NCBI RefSeq assembly: GCF_000972385.1 | Contig: NZ_JXTE01000017.1 | Coordinates: 1-64,000, forward strand | Source: Streptomyces sp. WM6386 | Lineage (GTDB): Bacteria > Actinomycetota > Actinomycetes > Streptomycetales > Streptomycetaceae | Length of the DNA: 64,000 nt | Reading direction: 5' to 3' | In this document: piece after piece, positions 40,051 to 46,479 of the stretch | Position numbering within the stretch: the first letter of the stretch is position 1 | Layout: every line of letters starts with the position of its first letter | Translations under genes and position numbers: made by a program | Notes under the pieces: model-generated | What the model was told of the DNA's origin: nothing | The model's database searches: none | What the model saw: only the letters and a program-made list of their open reading frames with translations

Positions 40051-40121
40051 GATGGGCATGTTACCCACGAGTAGCCTCGCATGACCAGGCAGGTGTGATG
40101 ATCGTCGTATCCTTACCGCCC

Positions 40122-41033
40122 ATGTGGCCAGGAGAGCGACCGCCGGGGGGCGGAACGAATCCGCAGCAGGACGCGAACCCCTATCAGCAGCCGGGATATC
40201 AGCAGCCCAACCCGTACACCGCGCCACCGCCGCCACCGCCGCCCGCGCCGGACAGCGGGAACCGGCGTACGAGAACCGTCGCCCTCGCCGCGACCGCGGC
40301 CGTCGTGGTCGCCGCCCTGGTGACCGGCGCCGTGTTCCTCGGGGGTGGCGGCGACGACGAGGCGGCACCGGACCCGACGCGTTCCTCGGCATCGCCGTCC
40401 GCCTCCGGCAACCCGCGCACGGCCGACGGCCAGAAGCCGACCGTGGACGGCTGGAAGGTCGTGGTCAACACGGACCTCGGCGTCGCCTTCGACGTTCCGG
40501 CGGACTGGGCGCTGGAGTCGAGGGACTGGGTGTCCTACGTCGCGGAGGACGACGATCCCGACGAGACACCGCTGGTCGCCATGAAGGGACCCGCAGTCCT
40601 CAAGGCGCAGTGGTGCACCTCGGACGACGACAAGGACGGCAGGACCGACGACACCCCGTTGGCGAGCGCCGGATCACGGGGCAACAAGGGCGCGCGGAGC
40701 ACCGAGGAGATCGCCCGCGCCGACTCCGCGGCCTGGGTCTACGGCATGTACACCCAGCCGGACAAGGAGAAGGTGACCACCGCGACCGCCACTTCGTTCA
40801 CCACCGCGTCGGGTCTGACCGGCAGCGTCGCCACGTCGGAGTCCTCCGGGGTCGAGCGGCAGGACAAGTGCGACACGGACGGCAAGGCGACGACCTTCGC
40901 CTTCAAGAACGCCGAGGGTGACTTCGCGTCGTGGTCGTTCTTCGGCGCCGCGGGCGTCGACGAGGAGGTTCCGCAGACCACGGTCGAGGAGATCCTGAGC
41001 ACGGTACGCGTGTTCACGCCCGGGGAGTCCTGA
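40122..41033 (+). CDS. PYQQPGYQQ membrane protein, paralogue 1
   Basis: A 303-residue type II membrane protein. The cytosolic N-terminus begins 'MWPGERPPGG' and has Pro/Gln/Tyr repeats ('NPYQQPGYQQPNPY'), followed by a poly-proline run. One membrane helix is at about 55-78. After an acidic/Ser-rich linker comes an extracellular domain with 'VDGWKVVVNTDLG' and 'FDVPADWALES', resembling PsbP/LpqN-like folds, and a conserved Cys pair ('QWCTSDDDK', 'DKCDTDGK') that probably forms a disulfide. It is the most divergent of three tandem copies. Function unknown; no lipobox. Confidence 0.75.
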   Translation: MWPGERPPGGGTNPQQDANPYQQPGYQQPNPYTAPPPPPPPAPDSGNRRTRTVALAATAAVVVAALVTGAVFLGGGGDDEAAPDPTRSSASPSASGNPRTADGQKPTVDGWKVVVNTDLGVAFDVPADWALESRDWVSYVAEDDDPDETPLVAMKGPAVLKAQWCTSDDDKDGRTDDTPLASAGSRGNKGARSTEEIARADSAAWVYGMYTQPDKEKVTTATATSFTTASGLTGSVATSESSGVERQDKCDTDGKATTFAFKNAEGDFASWSFFGAAGVDEEVPQTTVEEILSTVRVFTPGES

Positions 41034-41099: not shown

Positions 41100-42122
41100 A
41101 TGTGGCCAGGACAGCAGCCGCCCGGGGGCGAGCAGAACCCGCAGGACCAGAACAACCCGTACCAGCAGCCGGGGTACCAGCAACCCAATCCGTACCAACA
41201 GCCCGGCTATCAGCAGGCCAACTCCTACGGGCAGCAGCCCCAGTGGGACACGCCCCAGCCGCCGCAGCCCGGAGTTCCCGGAGGCGGCGGCGGTGGCAGC
41301 CGTACGAAGATCACGGCGATCGTGGCCGCCCTGGCCGTCGTCGTGGCCGCCGGTGTGACCGGCTTCCTCGTCCTCGGCGGTGACAAGGACGACGAGTCGG
41401 ACGGCGGCTCGGACAAGCAGACCGGCCAGAGCGCGCCTCCGTCGAAGTCCGTCTCGACCGATCCGTCCGCGTCGGCCTCCGGCTCGGACGACAACCCGCG
41501 GGGCGGTGAGGAGGAGAAGGCGACGATCGACGGCTGGAAGGTCGTCATCAACCCCAAGTGGGGCACCGCCTTCGATGTCCCGGCGGACTGGCAGGTCGAG
41601 TCGCCGGGCATGATCATCGGCTTCGAGGAGGACGACGCCAAGGCCGGTGACAAGCCCATCATCACCATGTCGGCGCCGGCGTACCTCAAGGAACAGTGGT
41701 GCACCTCCGACGACGACAAGAACGGTGACAAGGAGGAGACCGCCCTCGCCACCGCGGGCACCAAGGGCGCGAACGGCGCCAAGGACACCGACGAGGTCGC
41801 CCTCAACCAGGTCGCGTGGTGGGTGTACGGCGGCTACACGCAGCCGGACAAGAAGAGCATCACCCTCGACGAGAAGGCCAAGGCGTTCACGACGACGTCC
41901 GGCGTCAAGGGCAGCATCGCCTGGGCCCGTTCGAAGAACACGCCCCAGAAGGGCAAGTGCGCGAGCGACGGCAAGGCGGTCACGTTCGGGTTCAAGAACT
42001 CCGCCGGTGACTTCGTGGCGTTCAGCCTGTACGGGGCCACGGGCGTCGACGAGGAGCTTCCGGACGCCACGATCACGAAGATCCTGAGCACGGTCCGGCT
42101 GCACGGCGAGCCGACGGGCTGA
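41100..42122 (+). CDS. PYQQPGYQQ membrane protein, paralogue 2
   Basis: A 340-residue paralogue with the same plan. The N-terminus 'MWPGQQPPGGEQNPQ' is followed by two 'NPYQQPGYQQ' units, a glycine run, basic 'SRTKI' and a membrane helix at about 69-91. The outer domain carries 'NPKWGTAFDVPADWQVESPG' and two cysteines ('EQWCTSDDDK', 'GKCASDGK'). It ends in 'TVRLHGEPTG', nearly the same as copy 3. Gaps of 66 and 71 bases to its neighbours allow one transcript. Confidence 0.75.
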   Translation: MWPGQQPPGGEQNPQDQNNPYQQPGYQQPNPYQQPGYQQANSYGQQPQWDTPQPPQPGVPGGGGGGSRTKITAIVAALAVVVAAGVTGFLVLGGDKDDESDGGSDKQTGQSAPPSKSVSTDPSASASGSDDNPRGGEEEKATIDGWKVVINPKWGTAFDVPADWQVESPGMIIGFEEDDAKAGDKPIITMSAPAYLKEQWCTSDDDKNGDKEETALATAGTKGANGAKDTDEVALNQVAWWVYGGYTQPDKKSITLDEKAKAFTTTSGVKGSIAWARSKNTPQKGKCASDGKAVTFGFKNSAGDFVAFSLYGATGVDEELPDATITKILSTVRLHGEPTG

Positions 42123-42193
42123 GCCGTGGGGAGGCCGTCCGCTAGCCGGATGTGCGGGGCACCGGCCTCCCCGCCCCCCTAGGGTTGTCGGCC

Positions 42194-43174
42194 ATGTGGC
42201 CAGAACAGCAGCCGCCCGGGGGCGAGCAGAACCCGCACAACCCGTACCAGCAGCCCGGGTACCAGCAACCCAATCCGTACCAACAGCCCGGCTATCAGCA
42301 ACCCACTCCTTACGGGCACCAGCCCCAGTGGGACATACCCCAGCCACCGCAGCCCGGGGGCGGCGGTGGCAACCGTACGAAGATCACGGCGATCGTGGCC
42401 GCCCTGGCCGTCGTCGTCGCCGCCGGTGTGACCGGCTTTCTCGTCCTCGGCGGTGACAAGGACGACAAGGCGGACGGCGGCGACCCGACCCCGACCGCCA
42501 CCACCCCGGCGCCCACCTCGGCGAGCCCGAGCGCCGACGACGATCCGCGTGGCGGTGACGGGGCGAAGCCGACCATCGACGGCTGGAAGGTCGTGGTCAA
42601 CCCGAAGTGGGGCACCGCCTTCGATGTCCCGGCGGACTGGCAGGTCGAGTCGCCCGGCGTGTTCATCGGCTACGAGGACGAGAAGAAGGGCGACGGCTCG
42701 GCCCTCATCGGCATGTCCGCACCGGCCTACGTCCAGGAGAAGTGGTGCACCTCCGACTCCGACAAGGACGGCACCACCAGCGACAAAGCGCTCGGCACGG
42801 CCGGCACCAAGGGCCAGAACGGCGCCAAGAACACCGCCGACGTCGCCCGCAACGACTCGGCCTGGTGGGTGTTCGGCGGATACACCGACCAGAAGGACGC
42901 CTCCAAGAAGCTGCTCACCATCGGCAAGGCGAAGGCGTACACCACGGCCTCGGGCATCGAGGGCAGCGTCGCCACGACCTACTCGACGGGCGTGCCGAAG
43001 ACGGACAAGTGCGACACGAACGGCAAGGCGACGACGTTCGCGTTCAAGAACTCCACGGGTGACTTCGTCTCCTGGACTTTCCACGGGGTCAAGGGCACCG
43101 GTGACGAGGTGCCGGACGCGACGGTCCAGAAGATCCTCAGCACGGTCCGGCTGTACGGCGAACCCACGGGCTGA
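42194..43174 (+). CDS. PYQQPGYQQ membrane protein, paralogue 3
   Basis: A 326-residue paralogue. 'MWPEQQPPGGEQNP', two 'NPYQQPGYQQP' units, membrane helix at about 65-88, and the same outer domain with 'NPKWGTAFDVPADWQVESPG', cysteines in 'EKWCTSDSDK' and 'DKCDTNGK', and the ending 'TVRLYGEPTG'. Long nucleotide stretches are identical to copy 2, so these two separated recently or are homogenised by gene conversion. Function unknown. Confidence 0.75.
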   Translation: MWPEQQPPGGEQNPHNPYQQPGYQQPNPYQQPGYQQPTPYGHQPQWDIPQPPQPGGGGGNRTKITAIVAALAVVVAAGVTGFLVLGGDKDDKADGGDPTPTATTPAPTSASPSADDDPRGGDGAKPTIDGWKVVVNPKWGTAFDVPADWQVESPGVFIGYEDEKKGDGSALIGMSAPAYVQEKWCTSDSDKDGTTSDKALGTAGTKGQNGAKNTADVARNDSAWWVFGGYTDQKDASKKLLTIGKAKAYTTASGIEGSVATTYSTGVPKTDKCDTNGKATTFAFKNSTGDFVSWTFHGVKGTGDEVPDATVQKILSTVRLYGEPTG

Positions 43175-44323: not shown

Positions 44324-45502
44324 TCACACGACGGCTGTCACGGTCCCCGCACCCACGGTCCGACCACCCTCACGGATGGCGAATCCGAGCCCCGGCTCCA
44401 GAGGCACCTCCCGCCCCAGCTCCACGGTCATCGTGACCGTCTCACCAGGCCGCGCGACAGCCACCTCACCCAGGTCGACATCACCCACCACATCCGCCGT
44501 GCGGATGTAGAACTGCGGCCGATACCCCGTCGCCACCGGCGTCGTCCGACCGCCCTCGCGGGAGGACAGCACATACACCTGCGCCGAGAACCGCCGTCGC
44601 GGCTCCACGCTGCCCGGCGCGGCCACCACATGCCCACGCCGTACGGCGTCCCGGGGAACGCCCCGCAGCAGCAGCGCCACGTTGTCCCCGGCCTGCGCCT
44701 CGTCCATGGGCTTGCCGAAGGTCTCGAGCCCGGTGACGACGGTCTCGACCTCCGCCCCGAGCACTTCGACCCGGTCGCCCACCCGGACCGTGCCCCGCTC
44801 CACGGCACCGGTGACGACCGTCCCGCGGCCGGTGATGGTGAGCACGTTCTCCACCGGCAACAGGAACGGCGCGTCCAAGTACCGCTCCGGCATGGGCACA
44901 TATGTGTCCACCGCGTCGAGCAGCGCGTCGATGGACGCCGTCCACCGCGGGTCGCCCTCGAGCGCCTTGAGCCCGGAGACCCGTACGACAGGCACCGCGT
45001 CGCCGCCGTACCCGTGCGTGGTGAGCAGGTCACGGACCTCCAGCTCGACGAGTTCCACGAGCTCGTCGTCCGCCGCGTCCGCCTTGTTCAGCGCGACGAC
45101 CACGTGGTCCACGCCCACCTGCCGGGCGAGCAGCACGTGTTCGGCGGTCTGCGGCATGATCCCGTCGAGCGCGGAGACGACGAGGATCGCCCCGTCGAGC
45201 TGCGCGGCGCCGGTGACCATGTTCTTGACGTAGTCGGCGTGGCCCGGCATGTCCACGTGCGCGTAGTGCCGGGTGTCGGTCTCGTACTCGACGTGCGCGA
45301 TGTTGATGGTGATGCCGCGCGCGGCCTCCTCCGGGGCCCGGTCGATGCGGTCGAACGGGACGTATCGGGTGCTGCCGCCGGTGCCGCGGTCGGCGAGGAC
45401 CTTGGTGATGGCGGCGGTCAGGGTGGTCTTGCCGTGGTCGACGTGGCCCATGGTGCCGATGTTCAGATGCGGTTTGGTGCGCACGTATGCCGTCTTGGGC
45501 AT
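44324..45502 (-). CDS. tuf3: Divergent elongation factor Tu (tuf3 type), cysteine-free
   Basis: A 392-residue EF-Tu with all three domains. G1 'GHVDHGKT', G2 in '[14 protein letters not shown]', G3 'DMPGHADY', G4 'NKAD', G5 'SGLKAL'. Length and divergence match the S. coelicolor tuf3 product, described as an inessential EF-Tu with stringent-type control. The normally invariant 'DCPGH' and 'NKCD' cysteines are M and A, and no cysteine is present anywhere. G5 is SGL, not SAL. It should deliver aminoacyl-tRNA under special conditions. Start ATG 45502 with CGAGGA seven bases upstream. No translation genes are adjacent. Confidence 0.93.
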
Positions 45503-45535
45503 GGCGATTCCTCGAAGCCTCTTCGTTGGTGATGG

Positions 45536-45575
45536 GGACCCCGGGGAACTGGCCGACCCTCCCCCTGCGGGGTCC
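45536..45575. promoter_or_regulatory. Inverted repeat in the tuf3 leader
   Basis: ggaccccg (45536-45543) and cggggtcc (45568-45575) form a perfect 8-bp stem, 34-73 bases before the tuf3 start. It could be a leader hairpin or regulator site. Confidence 0.4.
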
Positions 45576-45595
45576 GCCGGACAATCCGGAGAGGG

Positions 45596-45709
45596 TCAGC
45601 TTCGGGCGCCGTCGACAGCGGCCAGGAAGATTTCAACGGCAGCCTTCGGTGCATCCGCGACTGCGGATGCTGCGAAGAGGAAGGCGTGCCGGAACATGAG
45701 GCCGATCAT
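45596..45709 (-). CDS. Possible 37-residue small protein upstream of tuf3
   Basis: ATG 45709 with ggggggt about 5 bases upstream, TGA at 45596, 94 bases before tuf3 in the same direction. Residues 'MFRHAFLFAASAVADAPKAA' and 'VEIFLAAVDGARS' would form an amphipathic helix. No homologue is recognised; it may be a leader peptide, part of the tuf3 transcript, or chance. Confidence 0.3.
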   Translation of the reverse strand: MIGLMFRHAFLFAASAVADAPKAAVEIFLAAVDGARS

Positions 45710-45756
45710 TGCCGACCCCCCGCCCGGCGTCGAATGGTTTTTCGAGCTACGGGGCG

Positions 45757-46479
45757 TCAGGCACCGATGTTCTTGAGTGCTTCCCGCACCGACAGCGGCG
45801 CGAAGCGGCCCTTCTCCCGGGCGAGGAAGGACCGTACGGCCGCCGGGTCGGTCTTGGCGTACTCGCGCAGCGCCCAGCCGATCGCCTTGCGGATGAAGAA
45901 GTCGGGGTGTCCGGACTGGCGCAGGCAGTAGGCGAAGAGGCGGTCGGCGTCGGTGTGTTCCTTGTGACGCAGCTGGTGGAGCAGGGCGGTGCGGGCGATC
46001 CACAGGTCGTCGTCCACGATCCAGGCGTCCATGTCGGCCTTGAGCTTCGGGTCGGCGGTCACCATCGCGCCGACGACGTGTGCGGCGAGCAGGTCGACGG
46101 TGTCCCACCAGGGGACCGTGGAGACGAGGTGCCGGGCCACCGGCAGGAAGCCGGACGGGAGCACGCGCGCGTGGCGGCGCAGATAGTCGACGGCGAAGTA
46201 CTGGTACTCGCGCTCGGGCAGCTCCCAGCAGCGCAGGGCGATCGCGGTGCAGTCGGCCTCGTCGGGGCGGGGCGTGCCCTCCAGGACGGTGCGGGACAGG
46301 CAGCGGCGTACGGGCGTGGTGAGGCCGAGGAAGGGGGCGACGTCCTTCATGTACGCGCGCATGGGCTCGGCCCGCCCGCGGTCGGCCGCTGCGCCGTAGA
46401 CGGCGGTGAGCCGCTCCAGGACGGTGTCCGCGAGAGTGCTGTGCGGCAGTGAGGGAGATCCCACACCTGTGACGCTCAT
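45757..46479 (-). CDS. AlkD-like DNA alkylation repair protein
   Basis: A 240-residue all-helical ALK/HEAT-repeat glycosylase family protein. 'REYQYFAVDYLRRH', 'WWDTVDLLAAHVVG', 'DDLWIARTALLHQL' and 'HPDFFIRKAIGWALREYAK' are AlkD motifs, including the catalytic-pocket W and D. It excises bulky or cationic alkylated bases. ATG 46479 is used; ATG 46491 is possible. It is divergent from the TVP38 gene. Confidence 0.9.
   Translation of the reverse strand: MSVTGVGSPSLPHSTLADTVLERLTAVYGAAADRGRAEPMRAYMKDVAPFLGLTTPVRRCLSRTVLEGTPRPDEADCTAIALRCWELPEREYQYFAVDYLRRHARVLPSGFLPVARHLVSTVPWWDTVDLLAAHVVGAMVTADPKLKADMDAWIVDDDLWIARTALLHQLRHKEHTDADRLFAYCLRQSGHPDFFIRKAIGWALREYAKTDPAAVRSFLAREKGRFAPLSVREALKNIGA

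Follow-up and report, generated by a model that had tools for sequence, protein, structure and literature searches.

Cysteine-free EF-Tu3 of Streptomyces sp. WM6386: a probable reserve elongation factor behind a putative leader-peptide RNA switch

The closest described relatives of the gene studied here are the tuf3 genes of Streptomyces coelicolor (SCO1321) and Streptomyces ramocissimus. Their product EF-Tu3, also named 'actEF-Tu', is a divergent extra elongation factor Tu (EF-Tu) of actinomycetes, which is expressed under stress and resistant to drugs (PMC12309360, PMC4342817, PMC7157823); here and below, statements on cited articles refer to excerpts of their text. EF-Tu3 was described as resistant to GE2270A and as less active (PMC12309360, citing Olsthoorn-Tieleman 2007), and its drug resistance is also mentioned in PMC3937824. 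In S. coelicolor, tuf3 is activated by WblC, and both WblC and HrdB are enriched on its promoter (PMC7157823). The role of this condition-specific EF-Tu of Streptomyces has been unclear since the 1990s. We analysed a tuf3 gene located in a stretch of 64,000 nucleotides from Streptomyces sp. WM6386 (contig NZ_JXTE01000017.1, positions 1 to 64,000), which is called the window in the following. Judged by its sequence, the gene is of the same kind as the EF-Tu3 genes named above, with which it was compared by description. The excerpts on EF-Tu3 and tuf3 contain no mention of the missing cysteine or of a tuf3 leader peptide.

Two further systems resemble the region upstream of tuf3. The actinomycete stress gene wblC/whiB7 possesses a leader open reading frame (ORF) in front of a hairpin, and this attenuator answers many translation inhibitors as well as starvation (PMC11550727, PMC12421871). 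In contrast to wblC/whiB7, tuf3 encodes a translation factor and is itself a target of WblC; moreover, a covarying second helix (S2, see below) exists, and no T-run terminator was found. The leaders of wblC and tuf3 were likened by description. The leader alaL of S. lividans alaS also contains alanine and precedes a translation gene (PMC8079986), but its peptide MNVIGRNIFATARATSSPVAAA and the gene alaS differ from the tuf3 leader and tuf3. The text of PMC8079986 presents eight leaders, none of them for tuf3, and tuf, EF-Tu and elongation factor are not mentioned in it.

According to our preferred reading, to which we assign a probability of about 0.72, tuf3 is an inducible reserve elongation factor, which is preceded by a WblC-type promoter and by a leader peptide combined with an RNA element (helices S1 and S2) acting as a ribosome-sensing attenuator; the missing cysteine would be neutral or permissive. 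EF-Tu3 would sustain protein synthesis when antibiotics block, or starvation slows, the main EF-Tu or the ribosome. The following upstream features, all on the minus strand of the window, belong to this reading:

45737..45743, minus strand: GAAAAAC box of the WblC/WhiB7 type, 3 bp 5' of the -35 element (consensus from PMC7157823)
45728..45733, minus strand: -35-like TCGACG (sequence match)
45705..45710, minus strand: -10-like AATGAT after a 17-bp spacer; predicted start 7-8 bp downstream, on or adjoining the leader ATG
45596..45697, minus strand: putative leader ORF MFRHAFLFAASAVADAPKAAVEIFLAAVDGARS plus stop codon, 11 of 33 residues alanine
45588..45599, minus strand: 5' arm of helix S1, which includes the leader stop codon (helix search and alignment)
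45553..45564, minus strand: 3' arm of helix S1
45569..45575, minus strand: 5' arm of helix S2, GGACCCC, within the S1 loop (free search)
45536..45542, minus strand: 3' arm of helix S2, GGGGTCC, in pseudoknot topology with S1 (free search)
45522..45610, minus strand: match of covariance model R1 with 93 bits, the element of the window (L001) being among the training rows

Blocks common to most of 89 tuf3 upstream regions resolve into an ordered device of promoter, leader and RNA. The WblC consensus reads GAAAWY, 3 bp, TKGMNN, 16-19 bp, TANNNT, with transcription starting 7-8 bp further on (PMC7157823). The promoter of the window (AAAAAC - 3 bp - TCGACG - 17 bp - AATGAT - 7 bp - ATG) fits it loosely in the box, in the -35 element and in the first base of the -10 element. 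A similarly loose string ending on the leader ATG was found at 85 of 98 loci, compared to none of 1960 shuffled sequences, and a related pattern precedes 73 of 110 tuf3 genes versus none of 41 EF-Tu1/2-type genes. A general scan of the tuf3 upstream region for promoters and terminators found nothing. The strings in front of the leader argue for a conserved WblC-type promoter at tuf3, with a predicted transcription start on or adjoining the leader ATG.

An in-frame ATG of the putative leader ORF is present in 106 of 110 tuf3 loci; the peptides start mostly with MFR and end mostly with GAR(S/R). In 97 of 98 loci the distance from start to stop is divisible by three, across 26 different lengths. 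Among 42 leaders of 33 codons, changes are most frequent at codon position 3 (5032), followed by position 1 (4266) and position 2 (3211). On average, 35% of the leader residues are alanine (range 8-56% over the loci), whereas EF-Tu3 contains 11% and base-shuffled leaders reach 13%. GCA and GCT make up 37.5% of the leader alanine codons; the corresponding values are 4.8% for the tuf3 genes and 5.9% for seven genes of the window. In 102 of 106 loci, their share is higher in the leader than in tuf3. The predicted fold of the window contains a leader hairpin, GCATCCGC/GCGGATGC, which is kept in close relatives. A search of plasmid records gave one Streptomyces match to the leader region, over 29% of its length at 90%.

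For helix S1, 98.8% of the cells are paired over 78 sequences, while sliding the arms gave at most 72.8%. Both sides were changed in 21 cells versus 4.1 in shuffles, and five of the 12 pairs showed such changes. The underlying alignment A1 was built from 78 sequences out of 104 distinct leader stretches; the other 26, which are similar, were left out. Outside of the 104 were L162, which was misplaced by the helix search, and L123 and L188, for which no helix was found; the covariance model R1 later matched all three. As MAFFT had shifted the 3' arm of S2 by a column in many rows of A1, helix S2 was tested by searching freely within the 26 nt that follow, and permuted arms served as control. 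The 5' arm deviates from GGACCCC in 26 rows (10 types); in 24 of these, it is paired with its own 3' arm, whereas the consensus partner would pair with two only. Permuting the arms among rows in 1000 trials gave at most 6.48 compared to the observed mean of 6.87. S1 and S2 have no base in common, and S2 links the loop of S1 to the sequence following S1, which is the topology of a pseudoknot.

R1 matches 32 of 33 tuf3 loci outside of its alignment, many of which are identical to or near-copies of training rows. The most distant locus, L188, was matched with an E-value of 2.6e-5, and the sole miss, L259, is a 5'-truncated match. At EF-Tu1/2-type loci R1 gave no match at E<1. Weak shadows of the element on the opposite strand were seen from E 0.06 on. 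In positions 45300-46000, no Rfam family reached its gathering score, the best of four weak matches having E 0.65. Taken at the level of sequence, the leader stop codon lies within a covarying two-helix RNA in front of tuf3. Neither the leader and RNA element nor the missing cysteine is described in the excerpts of open-access literature that were searched, a body to which the original tuf3 papers do not belong. The leader peptide and the S1/S2 element at tuf3 are new here, and may be described beyond this literature. With 61.5 bits, R1 further matches the region preceding L191, a divergent copy of tuf3.

The predicted start of transcription at the ATG, the rare codons of one amino acid, the stop codon within a hairpin and the control by WblC together suggest ribosome-mediated attenuation. 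In the proposed mechanism, the WblC-type promoter would start the transcript at the leader ATG. Fast translation of the leader would then allow S1 and S2 to form, and tuf3 would be kept low; ribosomes slowed or stalled on the leader by drugs would prevent S1/S2 formation, and tuf3 would be raised. Given the rare alanine codons GCA and GCT, scarcity of alanyl-tRNA might be sensed as well, although alanine as the sensed residue is a guess. A study of 2024, judged by its title, reportedly connects whiB7 with alanine starvation, which is a hint in this direction; the title of a paper by van Wezel from 1995 mentions positive stringent control, which would fit the sensing of starvation. A more specific version is tentative, and we rate its chances somewhat below even. 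In it, a leaderless, alanine-rich leader with rare alanine codons, whose stop codon is part of a covarying pseudoknot-type RNA, would respond to slow decoding, mainly of alanine codons, by releasing an EF-Tu that is insensitive to drugs and free of cysteine. If true, such a ribosome-reading RNA would explain why tuf3 responds both to translation inhibitors (via WblC) and to amino-acid starvation. A leader-peptide switch would tie tuf3 to ribosome stalling and not to thiol stress, and it offers a directly testable mechanism for the timing of tuf3 expression.

The protein itself was characterized by the following features:

44324..45502, minus strand: tuf3 coding sequence, EF-Tu3, 392 residues, cysteine-free (ORF and Pfam domains)
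45239..45253, minus strand: G3 box DMPGH with Met where EF-Tu1 has Cys81 (DMPGHADY match at 45231-45253)
45077..45088, minus strand: NKAD box, identical to the one of EF-Tu1 from the same genome (coordinates by hand from the residue position)
44969..44977, minus strand: G5 box SGL with Gly174 (coordinates by hand from the residue position)

The ORF contains GTP_EFTU, GTP_EFTU_D2 and GTP_EFTU_D3 according to Pfam, i.e. domains 1-3 are all present, and the GTPase motifs G1, D80/P82/G83/H84 and NKxD are intact. A protein search listed as closest matches Streptomyces EF-Tus that are 88-95% identical; it returned near-copies among these matches, and no counts were based on it. The genome possesses three tuf genes. 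EF-Tu3 is 63% identical to EF-Tu1 (L003) and 64% identical to EF-Tu2 (L002), compared to 89% between EF-Tu1 and EF-Tu2. The sequence-only reading, a model's note on this DNA that preceded our analysis, had stated that EF-Tu3 is cysteine-free and that its motifs are DMPGH, NKAD and SGL; the translation of 44324-45502, with 392 residues and no cysteine, bears out all of this. It had also stated that a usual cysteine of NKCD is replaced, which is wrong for this genome: EF-Tu1 already has NKAD, EF-Tu2 has NKTD, and each contains a single cysteine, within DCPGH. EF-Tu3 therefore differs from them by one cysteine, not two.

In order to compare EF-Tu3 with its paralogues, EF-Tu genes were gathered from the genus (Streptomyces, 392 genomes), the family (81 genomes) and the class (246 genomes), plus named genomes. 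The class, family and genus names of the compared genomes are inferred; in the tree, the Kocuria protein L049 bore the label Acidobacteriota. The scan of the named genomes was limited by its pattern and gave mostly EF-Tus of other bacteria, which served as outgroups and were the source of the Kocuria and Saccharibacteria leads described below. The EF-Tu3 set comprises 101 distinct full-length proteins, partial and re-fetched tuf3 genes being left out; the EF-Tu1/2-type set comprises 49 distinct proteins from 50 loci, which were chosen by hand as cysteine-bearing copies. With a threshold of at least 95% in each set, 19 positions are fixed differently, among them C81M, A174G, R230A and G275A (residue numbers for C81M are those of E. 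coli EF-Tu). G275A is present in 101 of 101 EF-Tu3 proteins and R230A in 97, Arg occurring in none; in 96 of the 101 proteins, position 160 carries His, Gln or Asn instead of Tyr. The EF-Tu3 of the window carries G275A, R230A and Y160H. We take G275, R230 and Y160 to be resistance positions for GE2270A, pulvomycin and kirromycin, respectively. The changes at these sites agree with the reported drug resistance of EF-Tu3 and with its control by WblC. A drug-insensitive reserve factor is a better-supported role of EF-Tu3 than thiol protection.

A number of observations weigh against a reserve factor under attenuator control. L120, G316, Q329, A375, E378, V226, G257, R333 and T334 are unchanged in 99-101 of the 101 EF-Tu3 proteins, and Q124 is unchanged in 89; these positions are presumably further drug sites of EF-Tu. 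Moreover, Gln160 occurs in seven and Ala275 in one of the 49 EF-Tu1/2-type proteins. The paper of 2007 on tuf3 reportedly found the gene transcribed in exponential growth, and is said to doubt a role in self-resistance. Upon over-expression of tuf3 in S. coelicolor, two of three constructs brought no appreciable gain of GE2270A resistance, the thiostrepton-induced one being the construct that gained (PMC12309360); the excerpts of PMC9529903 and PMC4307249 cover the drugs and binding sites, not these EF-Tu positions. Among the 392 Streptomyces genomes, 75 lack a strong tuf3 match (hand count; the G3 pattern described below does occur in two of them, G046 and G301) and tuf3 is interrupted in four, which indicates that the gene is dispensable. 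On the side of the leader, one reverse frame is equally rich in alanine (36%), as the GC symmetry allows; the alanine richness results partly from the symmetry of the sequence and from the GC-rich leader hairpin, which contains some of the GCA codons. The folding energy of the region is unexceptional (z-values of -1.13 and -1.39), and no classical T-run terminator was found, with zero terminator-like sites in 45480-45900. An antiterminator excluding S1 was seen neither by eye nor in minimum-energy folds, no systematic search having been made; the switching step, which we infer, is therefore a guess.

The missing cysteine can be traced through the EF-Tu3 clade. In a tree of 149 EF-Tu proteins, computed with a quick method and rooted at the midpoint, EF-Tu3 is set apart by a long branch (0.66, SH-aLRT 100), and tuf3 is, as read from this tree, an ancient, clade-forming EF-Tu duplicate of actinomycetes. 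Met81 is present in 101 of 101 EF-Tu3 proteins versus Cys81 in 49 of 49 EF-Tu1/2-type proteins, the latter by choice of the set. Cysteines kept in other tuf3 products would have spoken against the sequence-only reading: at the G3 site, none of the 101 proteins has one. As a trait of the family, freedom from cysteine stands for the 91 of 101 proteins that contain none, but not for nine with one and one with two cysteines, which are never located at position 81. The altered G5 box, which it had also noticed, is nearly fixed (Gly174 in 98 of 101). At the level of DNA, the pattern DxPGHADY with a codon not beginning with T occurs in 284 of 392 Streptomyces genomes, at most once per genome, and among the matches listed (about 150) this codon is ATG in every row. 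The tuf3 gene or a large piece of it (match better than 1e-160) is present in 317 of 392 genomes (hand count). The exact G3 pattern is missing in 35 of these 317; six of them were read and all have DMPG (L120, L121, L122, L123, L126, L149), the other 29 being left unread at G3. Hence C81M is not due to chance but fixed in the tuf3 clade.

A loss of the G3 cysteine is also common outside of EF-Tu3. The genomes of a Kocuria species (DAPGH) and of a member of the Saccharibacteria (DMPGH) gave a single EF-Tu match each. In the class of the latter, 102 of 109 genomes were matched once each, with Met in 96 and Cys in six cases; in the family of Kocuria, inferred to be the Micrococcaceae, 109 of 110 genomes were matched once each, always with Ala. 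For the Actinomycetota, 102 of 139 genomes were matched, of which 63 had Cys only, 19 Met only, 13 Ala only and seven were mixed, four of the mixed ones being Streptomyces with tuf3. Among 105 matched genomes of 140 Pseudomonadota, Cys was found in all matches listed except for one Arg. The Nocardia EF-Tu1 L263 is cysteine-free (DAPGH and SGL), the Saccharibacteria EF-Tu L079 contains no cysteine anywhere, and the EF-Tu of Mycobacterium tuberculosis presumably has DAPGH, too. These proteins resemble EF-Tu3 in having a G3 box without cysteine; however, they are the main or sole EF-Tu found in the genome, whereas EF-Tu3 is a stress copy. Residue 81 requires five changes on the tree of 149 proteins, which we read as Met in EF-Tu3, Met in Saccharibacteria, Ala in the Kocuria family and Nocardia, Leu in L135 and Thr in L193, the last two being divergent tuf3 copies on long branches. 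Together, this distribution and the five changes indicate that the G3 cysteine is a labile trait of Actinomycetota EF-Tu and that stress copies are not peculiar in having lost it. The G3 cysteine was described as highly conserved among bacteria, and redox control of translation was argued from it; its replacement by Met or Ala in large groups of Actinomycetota and Saccharibacteria limits the generality of such control and provides natural test proteins.

Outside of EF-Tu3, SGL was found in L263 and in L282-L286, five EF-Tus from the family of Kocuria; Kocuria itself has SAL. The idea that C81M and A174G are a linked pair was dropped, as Kocuria (Ala81) and Saccharibacteria (Met81) both combine the loss of Cys81 with SAL. 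In some actinobacteria other than Streptomyces two EF-Tus occur, with Cys and Met (G966, G987) or Cys and Ala (G988) at G3; such pairs of EF-Tus with and without the cysteine seem to have arisen more than once.

These findings bear on neutral drift as an explanation of C81M: the exchange would have been tolerated and would have become fixed in a single event at the root of a dispensable, fast-evolving paralogue, without a function of its own. The flips of position 81 between Cys, Met and Ala within the Actinomycetota and the minority of genomes in which tuf3 is missing or broken are as expected for such a history, whereas the invariance of Met81 throughout a deep clade with variation at other sites is not. 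This invariance indicates that the residue is now constrained; a neutral first step does not bar a later use. On balance, drift has slightly better than even chances to be correct. Drift is an explanation for the cysteine alone and does not conflict with tuf3 as a reserve factor; the lineage would then lack the cysteine as a neutral or permissive trait, with a resistance to thiol oxidation perhaps as a by-product.

An alternative to attenuation is a post-transcriptional action of the leader and S1/S2, which would form a structured 5' region for mRNA stability or translation coupling. The lack of a T-run terminator, the variable distance between leader stop codon and tuf3 start among the loci, and the position of S2, a further helix behind S1 of the kind known from pseudoknots, which can act on ribosomes, all fit this alternative. 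However, promoter, rare-codon leader and a hairpin on the stop codon correspond to the layout of a leader-peptide attenuator, whiB7/wblC of the same regulon uses such an attenuator (PMC11550727), and Streptomyces leader attenuators without a U-run are known (PMC8079986). We consider a post-transcriptional mode less likely than attenuation, but a serious alternative to it.

The remaining explanation, that of the sequence-only reading, regards EF-Tu3 as a redox-proof copy: without the G3 cysteine no inactivating disulfide or sulfenic acid can form, and translation would continue under thiol oxidation. In its favour, Cys-82 of Synechocystis EF-Tu, the homologous G3 cysteine, was reported to be the oxidation-sensitive site (PMC11288746). 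In contrast to Streptomyces with its tuf3, Synechocystis has a single EF-Tu, which is reduced by thioredoxin, and no cysteine-free paralogue. The sole cysteine of EF-Tu1 in our strain is the G3 one, i.e. the site oxidized in Synechocystis; EF-Tu3, having lost it throughout and lacking any cysteine in most cases, should by its chemistry be unable to undergo oxidation of the Cys82 type. In addition, sigR, the gene of a redox-sensing sigma factor, is also activated by WblC (PMC7157823), so that a joint induction of tuf3 and the thiol response is possible. The link of cysteine loss to thiol stress is nevertheless unsupported: the same loss is normal in the sole EF-Tus of whole groups (Ala in the Kocuria family, Met in Saccharibacteria) and found in many further Actinomycetota EF-Tus, C81M is but one of 19 fixed differences, and 10 of 101 EF-Tu3 proteins have cysteines elsewhere. 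Methionine is itself oxidizable, for example by HOCl, and a protection of EF-Tu3 from HOCl does consequently not follow. Using a motif that we take to be the one of SigR, we found two strict and four relaxed matches upstream of tuf3 in 89 loci (L011, L042, L185, L188), with about one relaxed match expected from shuffles, and none in the tuf3 upstream region of the window; it is the WblC-type promoter that is conserved instead. In the excerpts of open-access literature searched, no thiol-stress expression data for SCO1321 were found. A redox-proof copy is therefore improbable, and protection from thiol oxidation by EF-Tu3 is possible, but not supported.

In four Streptomyces genomes (L287-L290; G005, G363, G365, G046), tuf3 is split directly after the G3 box, with junctions about 24-27 bp past the start of the DMPGHADY motif. 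The inserts span about 8-16 kb, and all four contain a large serine recombinase (PF00239 and PF07508). Both junctions were seen in three genomes, with a common short inverted sequence CACCCTGTCAT / ATGACAGGGTG; in G046 the left junction alone was seen, and the right part of tuf3 starts near residue 126. It seems that a family of integrative elements uses tuf3 as an attachment site.

Some Streptomyces genomes contain very divergent EF-Tu-like genes with altered G-motifs, namely L135 (G018; ADLPG/TRAD), L191 (G031; RDMPG/SQVD), L193 (G060; TDTPG/TKAD) and L194 (G366; SDCPG/SKCD). We regard them as decaying or repurposed tuf genes, L191 still being preceded by the tuf3 leader RNA. EF-Tu-like stretches also occur in 79 phage records, in 77 of which they are less than 60% identical.

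EF-Tu2 (L002; G000:C334) has as a neighbour, about 1.2 kb away and in opposite orientation, the 655-codon frame L006 with a partial EF-Tu-like match. In the window, three related tandem ORFs are located on the plus strand at 40095-41033, 41100-42122 and 42152-43174. A Pfam search with the third one gave no match. By eye, all three have N-termini rich in Pro and Gln, a hydrophobic stretch and a common motif resembling DGWKVVxNxxxGxAFDVPADW.

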